From the NCBI GenBank assembly GCA_012960975.1, contig DUAE01000001.1, positions 39,544 to 103,543 of the forward strand: 64,000 nt of DNA, given 5' to 3'. The translations under genes were made by a program, and so were the position numbers. Below, piece after piece: positions 16,809 to 39,246 of the stretch. Source of the DNA: Candidatus Poseidoniales archaeon. GTDB lineage: Archaea; Thermoplasmatota; Poseidoniia; Poseidoniales; Thalassarchaeaceae. Within the stretch, counting starts at the first letter, position 1; every line of letters starts with the position of its first letter. The notes under the pieces are model-generated. The model was given only the letters and a program-made list of their open reading frames with translations. It did no database searches and was not told the DNA's origin.

Positions 16809-19800
16809 CTAGAGGTCTATTCGTTCATCACAAATCGGACATTTCACCATTTTCAGGTTTGACCCTACTTCGAATCGACCATTACACTCATTGCAAATTA
16901 CCGGTTGATTCATTACAGGAAGTGCTGGCATCCCAGGGATTGGAGAAGTTCCAGAGGTTGGCATTACCGGTGATGCAGGTACCGGCATGTCAGGTAATGA
17001 ATCCGCTATTATCGTTGTATGACTTCGCGTCTCTCGGCGTTTTTTTCTTTCGCTCGCACCTTCGGTTAATTCTGGTTCGACCAGCTCTACCTCACTTGAT
17101 TTAACGGTAATATCAGTCTCTTCAATTACATCGACAACATCTTCCTCGAGCATAACCGTAGCCGTAACAACTCGGCCTCTTCGTTTCCCGAGGTATCTAA
17201 TAGCTCGAATTGAAAGCATCAACAAAACTAGGGTGCTGAGCAATAAAATTGCAATCGCAACTCCAGCAGCTAATATTTTGAAATTTTGCTCATCTAATCC
17301 GAGTGCAATTCGCAATTGCTCACTTATCGGAGTATTCTCATTGTTCAAATCCCAATCATCGATTAACGCTCGAATTTGCCACCCTGATGTCTCATGCCAG
17401 GAGAGAATAATTACTTCGTCACTCCCTGGACTTCTATCGGCAGCACCTAAGTGGGTTTTACTGGTAGTTATTCGATTTGAAAGTCCAATCCAACCTTCTT
17501 CTGCATTTATTATTCCATATTGAATTTGAGTGCCACTCGGACCGACAAAGTCATAGAAAAGTTGCGCGCCACGATATGTTTCGATAAGTACAATCGAATT
17601 CAATCCTCGAGCAGGAATTTGTAAACTATTATTTTCAATTGGCATAAATGTCGAATCAACAATCTTAGCAATCAATTCGGCTTCTGCAGGGACACCTTCT
17701 CGCCAGACGACGGTTAGGTGATCTTCTCCATCGATCAAATTGACAATCATCTTCTGGGAACCAGCTTCATCGCCAACCGTTTTCTTGTATGCCCAAGATG
17801 ATTGGCGTTCATCACCATGAGCATACCAAAGCCCTAATCTATCAATTCCAGTTGTATCATTCCTCACCGATTGGTAGAGAAGATGTGCACCTTCTTCACC
17901 AAATTCGATTACGAGAGGGTCGGCTACAGTCGAACTAATTTCAATCTCGCCGATAACATTTGGCGTATATCTCCAATCCGATGATTTTGTTGGTGCATCA
18001 GCGCTGAGCAAGAAAATGCTCGTTTGGTCTTGGAAGGTACCACCCGTAGTAATATCACGATGATAACCTGCAACTAAGAGTTCATCTCCTTGTTTGTCAA
18101 TGTCGATTCCGAAATATTTTCCATCAGAGAGCAATATTGGCTCCATCAAATCTTGAATCGGCGTCATTGTGCAGGTTGCATCTATTGTCGAATAACTAAC
18201 GGTTTGTTGGAAATATCCATCATTATCTATGTATCTTCGAGTCCAGGCAATATGAGCAATCCCATCATCAGTACTCCAGGTAGATAAATCTCCAGTCCAC
18301 ATTTCTTCGAGTAAATTAGTACAGGCGGTCAAGGCTCGATTCGAATTTATTCTATAGAGGGCCAACCCCCCATCTTTCTCACTAATTACCAAACCTTCCT
18401 CACCTAATTCGATTATCTCAATCGGGTTTTCACCATAACTGAAAGTAGTTTCTCTGATTCCAGAAAGTGTCGATTCATCGACCAAAATTGTCCATTCAAT
18501 CTCATTATTTTCCCAATTTAGGTCGGCTAAACCTTCGCCCTGAACGGACACTCTCATCTCGATGGGGCCAGATTCAGTTGCTATGTGGGCGAAGGCAATT
18601 TGTGATGCGCCTTGGCCAACTACGAGGGATATCGTTGTCGATAGCACAGCTTCCCAACCGTGTTCGGTGTTGAATTCTAGTGTCGCTTCTACAGAGGTTG
18701 CATCGGTTGAGCCTAGGTTATCTATTCGTGCGGTAATGAGAAATTGTTCGTTTGGCCGAGGTATCGAGGGTTCGGTACGTATCGCTCCTTCACGGAATAC
18801 CAAGTCGATTCCTTGCGGTCTGGCTAATACTGGGAATGTGATAGATAGATCATTATCGGTCTCATCCGTTTCGTTGATTTGAAAACTAGGATCTAATGAA
18901 ATCGTTACCAATTTGTCACCAACAGTGGCCGGATTCCATGATAGTGAAATTTCCATAATATCACCACTACCAATATATTGAACCAATACTTCATCTTTTC
19001 TTGCACCATCTTCAAGAAGGTAAATTTTGAAATCTTCAGCAGAAATATCTCCGATGTTTCGAATTTGTGTTTTTACTTCAAGGAATGTATTGACATAAGA
19101 TTCAGAAATTGGAACCCCAAATTCTTGAACCGATAATCCACTTCTGAACATTAAATCAGCAGAAGGTGGATTATTGTCGATTTCGACAGTCGTTCTAATC
19201 TCTTCGGAGATGACCCCAACTCCACTGACAAAGCGGACTGAGAATCTATGAATTCCGTCGGGAAGTGTCGTAGTATCCCATATGTGAGACCAATCCATTT
19301 CCTCGGCACTATTACCCCAATAATTGGTTATATTCCCCCATGGGTCAGTTCCAATTCTCCATTGTATTTGAGCTCCGTTAACCGTTTCTAGAGTGCCGTG
19401 GACTTGAACATCTCCGCTGACTGCCGATTGTCCACTTGGAGCATTAAGAGTGATAGTTACGCGCCCTACCAAGTAAGTGCGTTTCGTGGTATTACTCCAT
19501 TGGTCAAATTCATTTTTGACTTTCACTTCGATTGTAATTGATTCAGCTTCAATATCATCATCTGCAAAATTTGGTAGATTTATCGGGGTTGACCAATTGA
19601 CTTTTCCATATGTTTTGTGCCAATCTACGAGTACGCTATTTGAGAGCGGCCCCCCATCACTTGGCCGATATTTATAGGTCACTCGAAGATGTACTTCTTC
19701 AGTCGAACCATTTTCTTCAGCGGCATCGGTAATATGGCCGCGGATATTGTAAACTTCACCTTCGATAACCCAATCGCCTGTTGGGTTTTCGAAGACGGCC

Positions 19801-30407: not shown

Positions 30408-31022
30408 ATGCGCATCAGAAAGTTAGCGATGTTGTTATCGAAATTAGAACCTCATCCTTGCTTAGATGTCGAGTTGGAACAATATAGCACGGATGGAAAT
30501 CTAGCTGCAAGGTGGCTGACTGATATCGCTTCTTTCGGCGACCTCCCAGAAGGTTGTATCATCGCCGATTTAGGTGCTGGAAACGGCATATTAGGAATTG
30601 GTGCTTTGACTCTCGGCGCTGGTAAAACAATATTTGTTGAGAGTGATGAACAGGCTTGCAACATTACGAAACTGAATTTGAAAAATCATGGTTTCGAAGA
30701 TGTTGGCGAGGTAATTCAATCTAGTATAGGTGATGGTGAACAGTATCTCGAAGGTGTCGATTTGATTATTACAAATCCACCTTGGGGTAAACAGATTCCA
30801 AAAGCCGATCGTCCATTCCTACAATCAATTATCACCAGCGGCAAAACAGCTCATATTCTCCATAGTGCAAATGCTGTTCATATCGAACCCTTCTTCATCG
30901 CCGCTGGATGGAGAGCAGAAAAATACGGGGAGGCGGATTTTGCACTGCCGGCGAAGTATGCTCATCACAGTCGTCAACGTGACAAAACCAGAGTTGGCTT
31001 TTGGCGCATTACAATAAATTGA
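30408..31022 (+). CDS. SAM-dependent methyltransferase (METTL5-like RNA methyltransferase family)
   Basis: MRIRKLAMLLSKLEPHPCLDVELEQYSTDGNLAARWL, IADLGAGNGILGIGAL, LIITNPPWGKQIPKADRPFL. Confidence 0.82.
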   Translation: MRIRKLAMLLSKLEPHPCLDVELEQYSTDGNLAARWLTDIASFGDLPEGCIIADLGAGNGILGIGALTLGAGKTIFVESDEQACNITKLNLKNHGFEDVGEVIQSSIGDGEQYLEGVDLIITNPPWGKQIPKADRPFLQSIITSGKTAHILHSANAVHIEPFFIAAGWRAEKYGEADFALPAKYAHHSRQRDKTRVGFWRITIN

Positions 31023-31131: not shown

Positions 31132-32451
31132 ATGAGTGCAGCAGTAGGTGACCTAGTGACGCCCGGCACAGCAGTCGAGATTCCATCAGGTGCCGAAGTA
31201 GGAGACGGGGTTCACGCCTCAGATTCTGGAGTTATAGCAACACTTACCGGAAAACTAGTTGAAAATGATGGTACTATCTCTGTTCAATCCAACCGCCCAA
31301 CTGCAAATATGCCTAAAATCGGCGATATTGTCATCGGTCAAGTAAATCGCTTGAATGCAAAGACCGCTGAAATCAGAATTCTTCACATCGAAAACAAGGA
31401 GGGCGGCGAGAGGGGCGTTCCGGCATTGAAATTATTTGCCGACATTTTCGTAACTGAATTTGTTGACCGATATATGCCATCAGCAGGAGATGCGATGCGC
31501 TCGCGAGATATCGTTCGCGCAAAAATTACTCAATTTGAACCGATGCTGAAAGCGAGTACTCGAAACGATCCAACCCTCGGTGTCTTGCATGCGATATGTC
31601 CGCCTTGTGGCGAACTTCTTGTGACCAGTGATAAAACTCCTGATTTCAATGTAGAATGTCCTCGTTGTGATTATACCGGATACCGTGTCCTTTCGAATGG
31701 CTTCGGTTATGGCCACGTTCTCCCTGATGGAGTTGATATTCAGTCACTGAATCGCCCCGGCGAGCGTTGGTCACCTGCTGCTGAGGGTAATCTCGGACAC
31801 GACGGGGCGCGACCATATCTCTCAGTCGTTGCAGATCATCGCCGTGGATTGGAGCATGAAATGCCTGCTAGCGCGGCGAAGATGCGCGGTGGCCGGGGCG
31901 GCGGCCGCGGAGGGCGCAGTGGAGGTGGAGATCGCCCACGCCGAGAAATGCACAAGACGGTCTGTACGATGTGCAGTTCCAAAACAGAAGTACCATTCAA
32001 ACCTACACCAGGTAAGCCAATCCGTTGTAGAGATTGTCTCAACAAGGTCAACGATGGTGAGGCAAGCAAGGAAGAATTAGCAGCAGAGCGCGAAGTATTG
32101 AAGGTAGCACGAGCGAAATCTGATGCTAACATGCCGATGAAACTCTTCGTCGGCAGCGTATCTTGGGATGCGAGTGAAGACGATTTGAGAAAAGTCTTCG
32201 CAGAGCATGGTACAGTAACTGAAGTTCACATAGCCAAAGATCGTGAAACCGGTAAATCACGTGGATTTGCTTTCATCTCTTTCCCAAACAAGAAAGAGGG
32301 TGCTGCGGCTGTGAAAAAGCTCGATGGTGCTGAATTCTTCGGCCGCAAACTGAGCGTTCAGGAATCTAATGCTGGCGGTGTTAAGCGTGGTGGAAATCGT
32401 GGTGGAAATCGTGGTGGCCGAGATGGTGGACGTCGTCCACGCCGAAACTGA
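31132..32451 (+). CDS. csl4: Exosome subunit Csl4 fused to CxxC-x17-CxxC zinc domain, RRM and RGG-rich tail
   Basis: Csl4 part: VTPGTAVEIPSGAEVGDGVHASDSGVIATLTG...IGDIVIGQVNRLNAKTAEIRI...SRDIVRAKITQFEPMLKASTRNDPTLGVLHAICPPCGELL...CPRCDYTGYR. Then CTMC-17 aa-CRDC, RRM with RNP2 LFVGSV and RNP1 SRGFAFISF, and tail GGNRGGNRGGRDGGRRPRRN. Confidence 0.88.
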   Translation: MSAAVGDLVTPGTAVEIPSGAEVGDGVHASDSGVIATLTGKLVENDGTISVQSNRPTANMPKIGDIVIGQVNRLNAKTAEIRILHIENKEGGERGVPALKLFADIFVTEFVDRYMPSAGDAMRSRDIVRAKITQFEPMLKASTRNDPTLGVLHAICPPCGELLVTSDKTPDFNVECPRCDYTGYRVLSNGFGYGHVLPDGVDIQSLNRPGERWSPAAEGNLGHDGARPYLSVVADHRRGLEHEMPASAAKMRGGRGGGRGGRSGGGDRPRREMHKTVCTMCSSKTEVPFKPTPGKPIRCRDCLNKVNDGEASKEELAAEREVLKVARAKSDANMPMKLFVGSVSWDASEDDLRKVFAEHGTVTEVHIAKDRETGKSRGFAFISFPNKKEGAAAVKKLDGAEFFGRKLSVQESNAGGVKRGGNRGGNRGGRDGGRRPRRN

Positions 32452-32503: not shown

Positions 32504-34297
32504 ATGGTTGGGATTCGAATGGAGGGCTGGCTTGTACTCGATGGATACGAGGACGAACCAGCTGCATTCGGTGTACCAAATTATGTCGGTTTTCATATCA
32601 GATATGTCTGTGGTGTTCTCGAAGCGCGAGGAGTTCCTTACACTTACATGACAATCGATCAGTGGCGTTTGAGCCACAAAAAACGTCTCGAAGATACTGA
32701 AGGACGAGCCCAAATTAAACGCGAGTTGAGCGAACTCGATGGTGCGATCGTTTTAGCAGGTGCAATCGTGCCGGGAAAGTATATTCGTGGAACTCCTATT
32801 TCACGTGGCGAACTAGACAAATTTTTGGCGATTTTTCCATATGAACAACCGGTGCTCTGTGGCGGTTGGGCAATCAAGCATTGGCGATATGATGGATGGA
32901 CTCCTCTTCGCTCGAAATTGTTTTGTGCAGTAAATGATGTCGATGCTTCACTAGATCATTATCTCTCAACAGGTGAGTGGTCTCATAGTAAGCGCACCGC
33001 TGAGCAATGGTCCGAATGGGCGCTTGCTGGTGCGCGCTCAAAAGCAGTGACCACGCATCCTGATTTATTGACTGAAGATGGACGCGCAGGTCCATTGACT
33101 TACGAGTTGGAATTGTATCAAGGATGCGTTCGGTTCAAGCGCGGTTGCAAGTTTTGTATCGAACCAAAAAAAGGCCTACCACTATGGCGCGAAGAATCAG
33201 AGGTTTTGTCTGAAATCACAGCTGCTCTCGATAGCGGTGTCAATCACATACGTATAGGTGGCGCGACCGATATTTACACCTACAAGGCTGAAGGGGTACG
33301 CGATCTAGAATATCCGATTCCGAATCCCGAGCCGATTGCTAAAATTCTACATGGTGCTCGCGAGGATGAGCGACTCAAAATTTTCCACGTCGACAATGGC
33401 AACCCCTCTATCGTAGCAGAAAATCTCGAACCTGCTACCGAGATAACGAAAACGATGGTTAACACTCTAAGTGATGGCGCGGTTCTATCTTTTGGACTCG
33501 AATCAGCCGACCCGACCGTCCATGAAATAAATTGGTTAAATTGCAATGCTGAGCAACTTACAACTGCCATTCGCCACATCAATGAATTCGGTAAAGGTCG
33601 TGGCGAACGCGGTCTCCCTAAACTCCTACCTGGACTCAACTTCATCGCCGGTTTGAATGGTGAAACCGACAAATCTTACCAAATGAATCTAGAATTATTG
33701 CACAACCTACGTAGCCAAGGCCTGTGGTTACGCAGAATCAACATCAGGCAAGTCGAAGGGCGCGGATTTCAAGATATCTCCGAAGAACCATTCCGTGCTT
33801 TCAAAAAAGCCGTCAGAGAAGAAATTGACACAATTTTACTCCAAGAAATGTTCCCGCTCGGTACCAAACTTTCCGATGTATGGTGGGAAGCACACGAGAA
33901 CCGTATTCGTCGACCAGAACAGGTTCTTGACCCAAGTCATCGAGCCGAAGTGATTCGCGGAAAGGCAGGAATTACCTTCGGTCGTCAGATTGGAGCCTAC
34001 CCAATCCTTGTCGGGTTACCATATCTCGTACCACTCGAGGCTGGCTCCGACATTATCGTTACTGGTCATGGGGCGAGAAGCATCTCTGGAGTTGAAGCAA
34101 ATCTTTCGATAAACAAGGCAACTCAATCTCAATTGGAGGCAGTTCCAGGAATTGGGAAGAAGGCAGCTTGGCGCATTGTCAGTACACGAGCAAAAGCTAG
34201 TAGAAAATCCAAAATTCCATTCGATTCTGTGGAGGCTGCCTTTCAGGCAGCGGGCATACAAACTCCTGAGGTGGCAAAACAAGTGTTCTCAATTTGA
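32504..34297 (+). CDS. Radical SAM protein with C-terminal helix-hairpin-helix (COG1031-like)
   Basis: LYQGCVRFKRGCKFCIEPKKGLPLWREESEVLSEI, HIRIGGATDIYTY, LLPGLNFIAGLNGET, and C-terminal INKATQSQLEAVPGIGKKAAWRIVSTRAK. Confidence 0.8.
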   Translation: MVGIRMEGWLVLDGYEDEPAAFGVPNYVGFHIRYVCGVLEARGVPYTYMTIDQWRLSHKKRLEDTEGRAQIKRELSELDGAIVLAGAIVPGKYIRGTPISRGELDKFLAIFPYEQPVLCGGWAIKHWRYDGWTPLRSKLFCAVNDVDASLDHYLSTGEWSHSKRTAEQWSEWALAGARSKAVTTHPDLLTEDGRAGPLTYELELYQGCVRFKRGCKFCIEPKKGLPLWREESEVLSEITAALDSGVNHIRIGGATDIYTYKAEGVRDLEYPIPNPEPIAKILHGAREDERLKIFHVDNGNPSIVAENLEPATEITKTMVNTLSDGAVLSFGLESADPTVHEINWLNCNAEQLTTAIRHINEFGKGRGERGLPKLLPGLNFIAGLNGETDKSYQMNLELLHNLRSQGLWLRRINIRQVEGRGFQDISEEPFRAFKKAVREEIDTILLQEMFPLGTKLSDVWWEAHENRIRRPEQVLDPSHRAEVIRGKAGITFGRQIGAYPILVGLPYLVPLEAGSDIIVTGHGARSISGVEANLSINKATQSQLEAVPGIGKKAAWRIVSTRAKASRKSKIPFDSVEAAFQAAGIQTPEVAKQVFSI

Positions 34298-34356: not shown

Positions 34357-37300
34357 ATGTCTGATTCCAATTCGAAGGGTCGAATCGTAGCGCTGTCTAT
34401 TTGCTTACTATTTCTTGGAATACCCATTCTGGGAATAATTTCCGCAGATTTTTCTCAAACGGAACTTCAAAATGAAAATAAAAAGTTACTTACCCACGTC
34501 GATTCGACTATAATTCACGAGCCTGGTTCTGCTCATGGACAGGTTTTCAGCAACTCTGTTTTCGAACTGAATTCTTACTCACCGAAACTGATTATGGGTA
34601 ATGGTAGTTCGGTTGAATTCAGTTCGGCAAGCGCGGTTTTGACAACTGATTCAGTTATTTCAACCGCTGATGATTGTTCTCTTTTAGCAAATTTATCACT
34701 ATACTGTGACGGATTGAATAATTATGGTCAACTCGGTATCGGCAACACCCAACTGTCGAGTGGATATGTTAATTTCGGTGGAAAAATTCCAGCGGCACTC
34801 AGCGATGGTTCAGATCATTATTGTGTAATTCTTGATGATGGGTCGGTCAATTGCTGGGGTCGAAATAATAAGGGCCAAATCGGCGATGGGACGAATATCA
34901 ATAGGAATTCACCTGTGGCGATTGACCTTGGAACAAATAAGACAGCAGTATCGATTTCAGCCGGTCGAGATTTTACCTGCGCTCTATTGAATACTGGAGA
35001 AGTTTCGTGCTGGGGAGATAACTCATATGGCATTCTCGCTGACGGAACTACGACCGATTCTAACTCTCCGATAGTCTCCAATCATTCAACTGGACTCAAC
35101 GCGGTGGCAATTACGACTCCAGGATACAGCGTTTGCGCTATTTTCGACAACGCTTCAATTAGTTGCTGGGGGAAGTCCTACACTGTATTTTCTGTCAATG
35201 GAGCGGTTAGCGCAGGTTCAGCACAAATTGCACTTGCTAGCGGACGAACAGCCGTTGCCATCGATGGAATTAATTCCCATACTTGTGCAATTCTCGACAA
35301 CGGCTCAGCGAATTGCTGGGGAGTGAATACCTACGGGCAATTCGGTAATGGCGAGTGTTCTTCAGTTATCGTAGGAAGTGGATGTACTGGCTCGAATGGC
35401 AATATGCCAATCGAAGTTAACATGACTGGAGCGGGTTCGGTCTCTTCACTAATTGCAATCTCTGTTGGAACTGATTCAACCTGTGGGATTAATTCAGGAT
35501 ACGACCTATATTGCTGGGGCAGGCAATCAGGTGAATTCGATGGTACTAACGATTCTCTAACAATGCCTCATCTTATGAATTTCAGCGATGGTTCATCGAT
35601 AGCTTATTCGGATCAAGATATGGATAATGATGGTACGGTCAACATTCTTGATGTTCATATGGCTGGAGATGCAGATGGTGATGGGATTCCGAGCCCGACC
35701 GATCCATATCCAAACAATCCTGCACGATGGATGAATTGTGAGGAAGGGGAGTGGGGGAGACTTACTTGCACTGAGGCGAGTCCTGGGCATTATGCACCAA
35801 ACGGTGCGCTCTACCACTCAGAATGTACTTTTGGAGAATTCCAACATGCGAGTGGCCAGCCGAGTTGTAACTCAGCTTCAGCCGGACATTATGTCAATCG
35901 GGCCGCATCGAATCTTCAATACCAATGTGATCTAGGGAGTTACCAAACTGATGTGGGGCAATCCTCTTGCACTAATGCAACAGCAGGAAATCATGTCCCT
36001 CTCTTCAGTGGTGAATCCGGTGATGATGCCGGAAACTCGACCCACCTTTCCCCGATGAGTGCTGATTATTCTGCGACCATCGCTACCGATTCAGATTTAT
36101 TTGATTATTACAAGATCACAGTCCCGAAGAGTTCTGGAATTTCAGTAAATCTTTCTACTTTCAGCTCTGCTGAAGTTGACCTAATCCTCTACAATTCAAG
36201 CTTAGGCGTAATCGCTTCATCTTCCAATTCTGGATTCTACGATGACGCGAACACGAACGCAACTTCATACAGTTCAGCGTTCGATGTTTATATCGCCGTC
36301 GAGCGAGTAAACGGAACAGGCGCTTACTCATTCAAAATTTGGCTTTTCAATACCGCTGACGGAACATTGATCGGTGACCCAACTTATTCGTTAAACGTCG
36401 AATTTAGCGCACGCCAAATCGAGTGCTCAACTGGAACTTATCAACCAAATGCTGGCAGTGATTCATGCGATTTAGCAGATCCAGGATACCATGTTGCTGG
36501 AGTTGGGGCTACATCTCAAACTGCTTGTTCTGCGGGTACTTACCAACCTCAGTACGGCCAAATAAGTTGTGTCACCGCTTCGTTAGGTCATTTCGTTCCA
36601 GCTGCTGCTTCGTCATACCAAACACCTGCGAATGCTGGGTATTACGTTGCGTTGCTCGGTGCTACCTCAGAAACACCGTGCAGTGCCGGAACATATCAAC
36701 CATTGACTGGACAGTATTTCTGTAATGATGCTGATGCTGGATATTATGTCGCAAGTAGCGGCTCCGATGCACAATTCGCTTGTGGCCTTGGCACCTACCA
36801 GCCGAATACTGGCGAGACTTACTGCTTGAATGCTGCAGCGGGATATCATGTTCCAACAACGGCTGCAACAAGCCAAACCGCCTGCGGACCTGGAACTTAT
36901 CAGCCGAGTGGCGGACAGTCGAACTGCCTCTATGCGAGTCCTGGATTTTTCTCTGCTGGAAACGCTTCGACCACTCAGACTCCTTGTGTTGCCGGCACAT
37001 TTCAACCAACTACTGGCCAAACTCGCTGTTTGAATGCTGATGCAGGATATTATGTTGACATCAACGCATCGGCAACACAATTCGCATGCGGGCTTGGTAC
37101 CTATCAGCCGAATACCGGCTCGATAGATTGTATGATTGCTGAGCCTGGCCATTACGTTGGAGTTACAGGCTCACCAAGCCAGACGCCTTGCGCGGCTGGT
37201 ACATATAATCCGAATTCAGGTTCAACGTCATTTTCGGATTGTATCGCAGCGTCTACCGGCCATTATGTTCCAAATTCCGGTAGTGATGCAGAATTAGAAT

Positions 37301-39246
37301 GTGGAATTGGAACATATACAGACCAAACCGGTCAATCAACATGTACAGATGCAGATGCTGGCAATTATGTTGATTCAACAGCAGCAGAATCGCAAACAGA
37401 GTGTGCAGCCGGCACATACCAACCTCAAGCAGCTCAAGCCGGCTGTTACGATGCCGATCCTGGAAATTTTGTTCCTTCACTTGGTTCAGCACTACAAACA
37501 GAATGCTCAGCTGGAACTTACAATCCAATGAGTGGTTCATCGCTGTCTAGCGATTGCCTACAAGCGATGGCTGGATACTACGTCGCAAATTCTGGTTCCG
37601 CTGACCAAACTGAATGCGGCGTTGGAACTTATCAACCAGTGATTGGTCAATTGAGTTGTATTGATTCACCAGCTGGAACATATATCTCAACAACTGGCCA
37701 AACTGGCTATATCGAGTGTCCAGTAGGACGTTACCAGCCGGCTCAAGGTTCAACTGAATGTGTGAATTCAGAGCCAGGGAATTATGTTGCTTCTTTGATG
37801 GCGACGGCACAAATTGAGTGTATTTCTGGAACTTATCAACCTAATTACCAAGCGACAGATTGCATTGAAGCAGATGCTGGATATTATGTTGCAAGTGACG
37901 GTTCAGCATCACAAACGATTAACCCTCTCGATTACTACACCGACTCAAATGGCAGTTCTTACCTGACGAATTGTCCGAATTTTTACATTACTCTTGAATT
38001 AGGAGCCGATTCGATTGCTGATTGTGTTCTCGATACCGATGGTGACAGGATAATCGACGAAAACGACCCTGATGATGATGGAGATGGAAGATTGGACCTC
38101 ATCGATGATTGTTCGCCGGGATTAACCGGCTGGATCAGCAATGTCGAGACAGATGCTGACGGTGATGGATGCCAGGATGAGGGAGAAGATTCTGATGATG
38201 ACAATGATGGCGTCGAAGATACCTACGACTCCTTCCCTCAAGATAATCTAGAGTGGGAAGATACCGACGGAGATGGAATCGGAAATAATGCTGACATTGA
38301 TGATGATGGCGATGGTTGGAGCGATACGATCGAAGCGATTTGCGATACCGATTCTGAACTCATCGGTGACGTTCCACTAGATACCGATGGGGATGGAATC
38401 TGCGATAAGTCCGATACCGATGATGATGGTGATGGATATTCCGACATCTCAGATTGGGCCATACTCGATGCTATGGAATGGGTCGATACCGATGGAGACG
38501 GTATCGGAAATAATGCTGACACTGATGATGACGGTGATGGTTGGTCAGATGAGAAAGAAATTCTAGAAGGCACAAATCCCCTCTACGCAGATAGCGATAA
38601 TGATGGGGTGATCGACCCAGAGGATGCATTCCCAAACGATATTCATGAGACCCTAGATGATGATGGGGACGGAGTCGGGAATAACCAAGATTCTCACCCT
38701 AATAATGCTCGATACCAGACCACATTCGACTTATTGATTGATATTATGGCAGGAATTGCAGCTCTTGTCGTGATTGGCGCTGCTGCAGTATTCGGCTTGC
38801 GCCAGAAATCAGAAGATAGTGAAGAGGAGGATCCCACTCCTGAGTCCCAAGGTCATGTTGGAGTTGGAATAGGTGAATTAGAACCGATAGAGATGGCTGG
38901 AGTTTCAACTATCTCTGATTCAGCAACCGAATCCGGTTTCAGTGATGATGACGTTGCATCTGAGGCTGACCCGATTTTACAGTACACACAAGAACCGGTT
39001 GCAGAACCTGAACCTGAACCTGATCGGGAATTCGATGTAGGAAGCATGGAAGACCTAGATGATTTGTTATCAGAATTACCGGCCCCGCCAAAACTGGTTA
39101 TCGCACCGCCTGCGGGTACGCCGATTAACGCAAATGGTCAACAGGTTTGGAAGGATGAAACAGGGCAGGTTTGGTGCATGAATATGGATGGAACCATCCT
39201 CAAACATGATGCTGCAACTGGTGGATGGATTACTTACCATAACTGA
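34357..39246 (+). CDS. Giant surface protein: RCC1-like propeller, cysteine-rich GCC2/GCC3-like repeats with inserted PPC-like domain, Ca-binding TSP3-like repeats, C-terminal TM and cytosolic tail
   Basis: Signal segment, repeated CAILDNGSANCWGxNxYGQxGNG units, about 17 units CxxGTYQPxxGQxxCxxADAGYYVxxxxxxxQTx, then DTDGDGIGNNADIDDDGDGWSD repeats, TM LIDIMAGIAALVVIGAAAVFGL. Confidence 0.85.
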   Translation: MSDSNSKGRIVALSICLLFLGIPILGIISADFSQTELQNENKKLLTHVDSTIIHEPGSAHGQVFSNSVFELNSYSPKLIMGNGSSVEFSSASAVLTTDSVISTADDCSLLANLSLYCDGLNNYGQLGIGNTQLSSGYVNFGGKIPAALSDGSDHYCVILDDGSVNCWGRNNKGQIGDGTNINRNSPVAIDLGTNKTAVSISAGRDFTCALLNTGEVSCWGDNSYGILADGTTTDSNSPIVSNHSTGLNAVAITTPGYSVCAIFDNASISCWGKSYTVFSVNGAVSAGSAQIALASGRTAVAIDGINSHTCAILDNGSANCWGVNTYGQFGNGECSSVIVGSGCTGSNGNMPIEVNMTGAGSVSSLIAISVGTDSTCGINSGYDLYCWGRQSGEFDGTNDSLTMPHLMNFSDGSSIAYSDQDMDNDGTVNILDVHMAGDADGDGIPSPTDPYPNNPARWMNCEEGEWGRLTCTEASPGHYAPNGALYHSECTFGEFQHASGQPSCNSASAGHYVNRAASNLQYQCDLGSYQTDVGQSSCTNATAGNHVPLFSGESGDDAGNSTHLSPMSADYSATIATDSDLFDYYKITVPKSSGISVNLSTFSSAEVDLILYNSSLGVIASSSNSGFYDDANTNATSYSSAFDVYIAVERVNGTGAYSFKIWLFNTADGTLIGDPTYSLNVEFSARQIECSTGTYQPNAGSDSCDLADPGYHVAGVGATSQTACSAGTYQPQYGQISCVTASLGHFVPAAASSYQTPANAGYYVALLGATSETPCSAGTYQPLTGQYFCNDADAGYYVASSGSDAQFACGLGTYQPNTGETYCLNAAAGYHVPTTAATSQTACGPGTYQPSGGQSNCLYASPGFFSAGNASTTQTPCVAGTFQPTTGQTRCLNADAGYYVDINASATQFACGLGTYQPNTGSIDCMIAEPGHYVGVTGSPSQTPCAAGTYNPNSGSTSFSDCIAASTGHYVPNSGSDAELECGIGTYTDQTGQSTCTDADAGNYVDSTAAESQTECAAGTYQPQAAQAGCYDADPGNFVPSLGSALQTECSAGTYNPMSGSSLSSDCLQAMAGYYVANSGSADQTECGVGTYQPVIGQLSCIDSPAGTYISTTGQTGYIECPVGRYQPAQGSTECVNSEPGNYVASLMATAQIECISGTYQPNYQATDCIEADAGYYVASDGSASQTINPLDYYTDSNGSSYLTNCPNFYITLELGADSIADCVLDTDGDRIIDENDPDDDGDGRLDLIDDCSPGLTGWISNVETDADGDGCQDEGEDSDDDNDGVEDTYDSFPQDNLEWEDTDGDGIGNNADIDDDGDGWSDTIEAICDTDSELIGDVPLDTDGDGICDKSDTDDDGDGYSDISDWAILDAMEWVDTDGDGIGNNADTDDDGDGWSDEKEILEGTNPLYADSDNDGVIDPEDAFPNDIHETLDDDGDGVGNNQDSHPNNARYQTTFDLLIDIMAGIAALVVIGAAAVFGLRQKSEDSEEEDPTPESQGHVGVGIGELEPIEMAGVSTISDSATESGFSDDDVASEADPILQYTQEPVAEPEPEPDREFDVGSMEDLDDLLSELPAPPKLVIAPPAGTPINANGQQVWKDETGQVWCMNMDGTILKHDAATGGWITYHN
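35730..37925 (+). repeat. Protein-coding tandem repeat block (about 33-35 aa, roughly 100-nt units; about 17 units)
   Basis: Aligned by eye from the ORF translation, e.g. CGLGTYQPNTGETYCLNAAAGYHVPTTAATSQTA / CGPGTYQPSGGQSNCLYASPGFFSAGNASTTQTP / CVAGTFQPTTGQTRCLNADAGYYVDINASATQFA. Confidence 0.85.

Follow-up and report, generated by a model that had tools for sequence, protein, structure and literature searches.

Archaeal Csl4, as described for A. fulgidus AF_0206 (PDB 2ba1, NCBIfam NF034126), comprises an N-terminal domain, an S1 domain and a zinc ribbon and ends at about 180-200 aa. Two kinds of free protein carry other domains relevant here: the small CxxC-x17-CxxC zinc finger proteins of Thermoplasmatota (TIGR04272, PF23477) and the prokaryotic single-RRM proteins (NF058537; RRM_1), which have a canonical RRM with RNP1 and RNP2. 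In eukaryotes, RBM7 of the NEXT complex is an exosome adaptor whose RRM brings RNA to the exosome via a helicase, as a protein separate from the exosome. A precedent is the engineered Csl4-NT protein of S. solfataricus, in which the DnaG N-terminal domain was attached to the C-terminus of Csl4; Csl4-NT gained RNA binding in vitro and gave the fastest Sulfolobus exosome, better than the Csl4 exosome plus DnaG (PMC4227792).

The locus described here lies in a 64,000-nucleotide stretch of DNA, referred to as the window, from a Candidatus Poseidoniales archaeon of the family Thalassarchaeaceae. It encodes a protein with the three domains of known Csl4, but a conserved extension, an RGG linker, a zinc finger, an RRM and a tail are added where known Csl4 ends. 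The layout is that of Csl4-NT, with a predicted RNA-binding domain on the Csl4 C-terminus; whereas Csl4-NT is man-made and uses a DnaG domain, the fusion here occurs naturally, with a zinc finger plus RRM in place of that domain. The zinc finger is an internal module of Csl4 rather than a separate protein, and the RRM is, unlike that of RBM7, a covalent part of a cap subunit. The RRM also differs from the free single-RRM proteins in being fused to Csl4, and it scored 83.1 bits against the RNA-binding regulator model NF058537, below the cut-off of 100. Our survey of the architecture covered Thermoplasmatota. No published description of a Csl4-zinc finger-RRM protein was found in the open-licence literature, and as far as searched there the architecture is previously undescribed.

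Domain architecture of the reading frame

The 439-aa ORF occupies 31132-32451 of the forward strand as a single frame with zero internal stops, and its domains run from archaeal Csl4 through an RGG-type linker, a CxxC-x17-CxxC zinc finger and an RRM to a basic Gly/Arg tail (Table 1). The Csl4 profile NF034126 matched residues 8-191 of 439 with 97.9 bits (cut-off 90) and was covered from position 2 to 178 of 180, so the initial annotation was right to call the Csl4 complete; PDB 2ba1 aligned with residues 10-194 (E 9e-13). The zinc finger (residues 271-305) exceeded the cut-offs of both TIGR04272 (49 bits against 36) and PF23477 (46.8 bits against 27), with exactly 17 residues between C281 and C299, and the RRM_1 profile matched residues 338-407 with 68.3 bits (E 5.5e-19). 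These matches bear out the CTMC-x17-CRDC motif and canonical RRM that had been read from the sequence, and they support the proposal that this exosome cap subunit carries extra modules of RNA-binding type.

Table 1. Features of the fused csl4 locus and its neighbours, in window coordinates
Feature	Position	Strand	Basis
Upstream neighbour, small methyltransferase (MTS fold)	30408..31022	+	PF05175
Csl4 body (N-terminal domain, S1 domain, zinc ribbon)	31132..31716	+	NF034126 match, 2ba1 alignment, CPPC...CPRC at residues 156-179
Lineage-specific Csl4 extension, residues 196-248 (LNRxGxRWS...LGHDGARPYLSPxADxRRG)	31717..31875	+	Conservation within the family
Gly/Arg (RGG) linker, residues 249-270	31876..31941	+	45% Gly, 27% Arg
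CxxC-x17-CxxC treble-clef zinc finger, residues 271-306	31942..32049	+	TIGR04272 and PF23477, both above cut-off
Helical connector between zinc finger and RRM, residues 307-335	32050..32136	+	Modelled helix 313-332
RRM, residues 336-412; RNP2 KLFVGSV, RNP1 KSRGFAFIS	32137..32367	+	RRM_1 profile, Foldseek
Basic Gly/Arg tail, residues 413-439	32368..32448	+	37% Gly, 30% Arg
Downstream neighbour, radical SAM protein with C-terminal HhH motif	32504..34297	+	PF04055 at cut-off, PF12836 just below

A structure model of the protein was confident over residues 271-412 (block pLDDT 80-90), which take in the zinc finger (pLDDT about 80-86), the connecting helix (connector block 82-87) and the RRM. The Csl4 half was modelled too poorly for use, with pLDDT mostly below 50 from a 14-row alignment of close sequences. 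Foldseek searches with the model returned solved RRMs, with TM-scores on the target mostly of 0.8-0.95, and among the many RRMs that it resembles are those of glycine-rich and cold-inducible proteins, CIRBP and GR-RBP1 for example.

The methyltransferase-csl4 adjacency is kept in the same family, in its sister family and in the sister order, and the csl4-radical SAM adjacency in the two families; these conserved neighbours indicate that the csl4 loci are orthologous. Further downstream in the window, 34357-39246 encodes a predicted surface protein of 1629 aa whose translation reads as RCC1-like repeats, Asp-rich repeats, a long Cys-rich repeat array (GTYQP...C...AGYYV) and a C-terminal hydrophobic segment.

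Conservation of the fusion and its segments

A match was found in 60/60 Thalassarchaeaceae genomes searched, though a few of the matches were faint or truncated where a contig stops. From these, 42 intact loci were extracted (42 genomes, 11 genera), and Csl4, zinc finger and RRM lie in one frame in every one. The same architecture was recovered from named genome records by a scan with patterns able to find close relatives only; these include AG-313-L18, AG-319-P11 and AG-447-I14, presumably single-cell genomes to judge by the style of their names, and a Candidatus Thalassarchaeaceae MAG. One relative, NZDA01000003.1 (G003), reads as two ORFs, as if the fusion were two genes joined by an assembly error or a frameshift. 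In that sole split the frame shifts by one base next to an ambiguous N, and the contig is rich in Ns; all 42 intact loci are fused across independent assemblies, and the sister family includes a genome in one contig that carries a Csl4-RRM-RRM gene. We therefore rejected an artefact, which we regard as having practically no chance of being the explanation. The in-frame fusion claimed by the initial annotation survived the search for a frameshift, a join or separate genes in relatives, and the ORF is confirmed as Csl4 fused in frame to a zinc finger and an RRM.

Conservation extends to individual residues. A fixed-position search found the paired CxxC of the ribbon in 40/42 proteins of the family and 15/16 of the sister family; the two exceptions in the family are N-terminally extended ORFs in which the searched stretch is displaced. 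The CxxC-x17-CxxC motif is intact in 42/42, the aromatic residues of RNP1 and RNP2 are kept in nearly all relatives, and the zinc finger-RRM connector measures 19-25 residues in relatives. Compared with congeners that are 67-74% identical across the whole protein, pN/pS was 0.16-0.28 for the Csl4, zinc finger and RRM parts, which are under purifying selection, and 0.4-0.7 for the linker and tail (tail 0.48-0.66), the least constrained parts.

The RGG content of the linker and tail was evaluated separately, as these had been put forward as a defining and possibly condensate-forming feature reminiscent of eukaryotic proteins. Six RGG triplets occur in the 439-aa protein, and every other reading frame of at least 100 codons in the window has at most one. 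Together with the long RGG tails of some other Thermoplasmatota Csl4, this is what speaks for a scaffold in which the RGG segments would cause RNA decay factors to phase-separate. Across the 42 proteins of the family, however, RGG counts vary from 0 to 6 per segment, only 6/42 have at least two in both linker and tail, and the tails of most species of the same genus are Asn/Ser/Arg-rich with one RGG or none. RGG repeats, whose conservation marks an RGG/RG protein with condensate function, are not conserved across these 42 relatives, and the segments concerned are those under the least constraint. We rejected RGG content as the central feature because of this variability, and consider a condensate scaffold very improbable; since long RGG tails also occur on other Csl4 that have no RRM, a condensate role is a weak guess. 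Nor is the resemblance specific to eukaryotic proteins, as free archaeal proteins of the phylum already pair a Gly/Arg tail with the zinc finger and long RGG tails without an RRM occur on some other Thermoplasmatota Csl4. Linkers and tails are strongly basic across relatives, and the linker varies between species; what these segments share is a basic, flexible character, not RGG content.

Related Csl4 loci and the origin of the fusion

The order contains a sister family, which we take to be Poseidoniaceae, and there Csl4 is followed by two RRMs and the zinc finger is absent in 16/16 loci examined (8 genera), the one-contig genome among them. In the sister order, which belongs to the same class, Csl4 is bare and the RRM is encoded by a gene of its own (84-94 aa); the Csl4 ORFs are 182-184 aa (two read out), in open frames of 185-214. 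One sister-order Csl4 (L047) has lost most cysteines of the C-terminal zinc ribbon (CDVTHD...WSEELRR), unlike its relative L044. Outside the class, RRMs were found in 17/205 sampled Thermoplasmatota genomes, as short separate frames, in keeping with the earlier statement that RRMs are uncommon in archaea, at least for these related archaea.

Elsewhere in Thermoplasmatota the zinc finger is a free protein, mostly of 55-80 aa, that has a PREMHK motif and an N-terminal tail rich in Gly and Arg. The zinc finger was absent from the genomes listed for the sister family and the sister order, and in Thalassarchaeaceae itself it occurs only inside Csl4. The stretch of the ORF formed by the RGG linker, PRREMHK and the zinc finger matches the whole free-standing protein, because the free proteins already carry the Gly/Arg tail. 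This match supports a scenario in which the linker and zinc finger represent one entire small protein absorbed into Csl4.

The 50-residue extension is conserved in the family, and its LNxxGxRW (LNxxGKRW) motif is common to both families; the extension is absent from sister-order Csl4 and from the other Thermoplasmatota Csl4 compared. Its presence in both families and absence beyond them fits a single fusion event that would predate their split. An RRM tree of 81 columns separates the fused RRMs from the free ones by a branch with 100/97 support, the root being unplaced. This short, unrooted tree does not show the free RRM of the sister order to be the direct source. A free RRM in a sister-family genome (G091, locus L088, contig 15, 1843-2067) was set aside, as its translation reads as eukaryote-like and the contig is probably a contaminant.

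Twelve long Csl4 open frames from other parts of the phylum were also examined. Most were due to a spurious upstream open frame, and four (L136, L137, L138 and L140) carry C-terminal RGG-type tails of 54-131 aa without an RRM; these Csl4 appear to have been extended independently at the same end.

Proposed role at the exosome

The genes for Rrp4, Rrp41 and Rrp42 lie side by side in the same genome, next to SBDS and proteasome alpha; they score below the NCBIfam equivalog cut-offs, yet these are clearly their best families. DnaG is also present (339 bits against a cut-off of 300), so there is an exosome for the fused Csl4 to join. Besides Rrp41 and Rrp42, the genome has a third RNase PH-type gene (L111:2059-2919; G000 contig 27, around 17448-17837), which best matches bacterial-type RNase PH (TIGR01966, 255 bits against a cut-off of 141.5); a third match was found in 7/7 genomes of the two families tested and in 0/2 sister-order genomes.

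The ORF probably encodes a cap subunit of the exosome to which arms that recruit substrates are covalently joined, a reading that carries our reasonable confidence and in which exosome assembly, RNA binding and recruitment are inferred. It draws on membership in the Csl4 family, the partner genes, purifying selection, the retained RNP and zinc-binding residues, the conserved fusion, its stepwise relation to genes that are separate in other lineages, and the Sulfolobus precedent. By homology, the Csl4 N-terminal and S1 domains would seat the protein on the Rrp41/Rrp42 ring, and the flexible basic linker would tether the zinc finger and RRM covalently to Csl4. The arms would then project from the cap, capture RNA and feed its 3' end into the pore. 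In this way they would increase the affinity for substrates and might also determine which are chosen. They may act alongside DnaG or partly replace it, and the fusion would guarantee one set of arms per Csl4.

Some RRMs bind proteins rather than RNA, and in eukaryotic complexes some act as tethers in this way. The RRM and zinc finger could likewise bind a protein partner, such as a helicase, the ribosome or an assembly factor, and so tether the exosome to it. Several of the best fold-matching solved RRM chains do sit in protein complexes (RES, ASAP, EJC and the spliceosome), and the exosome genes adjoin the ribosome-assembly factor SBDS. We nevertheless think such an adaptor unlikely, as nearly all relatives retain the RNP1 and RNP2 aromatic residues with which canonical RRMs stack on RNA, and the linkers and tails are strongly basic. 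Slightly less likely again is that the zinc finger-RRM half is first of all a general RNA chaperone, for example in cold stress, with the fusion mainly securing its expression or placement and having little effect on decay. The similarity of the RRM to CIRBP and GR-RBP1 would suit a chaperone, as would the small size of the free RRM and zinc finger proteins of relatives and the Gly/Arg-rich composition of the latter, but a strict fusion to Csl4 across the order, with two different sets of arms, points to a role at the exosome.

The exosome of this order may have captured the free RRM of the genome, and in one family the zinc finger protein as well, as fixed substrate-receptor arms, a history to which we give an even chance; in that case targeting would have evolved by repeated C-terminal additions to Csl4. 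The RRM pairs, the zinc finger plus RRM and the long RGG tails would then be lineage-specific RNA-binding modules added to the Csl4 C-terminus, and an archaeal counterpart, made in cis, of the eukaryotic exosome adaptors. Fusion to Csl4 also suggests, by the Rosetta-stone argument, that the free RRM and CxxC-x17-CxxC proteins, two poorly understood archaeal small-protein families, likely act in exosome-linked RNA metabolism. The naturally occurring forms (zinc finger-RRM, RRM-RRM, RGG tail and bare) are ready-made variants for comparing the effects of cap-attached RNA binders on decay. Most of what is known of substrate choice by the archaeal exosome comes from work on Rrp4 and DnaG in Sulfolobus, and a natural, order-wide fusion of predicted RNA-binding modules to Csl4 would represent a different solution in marine archaea.
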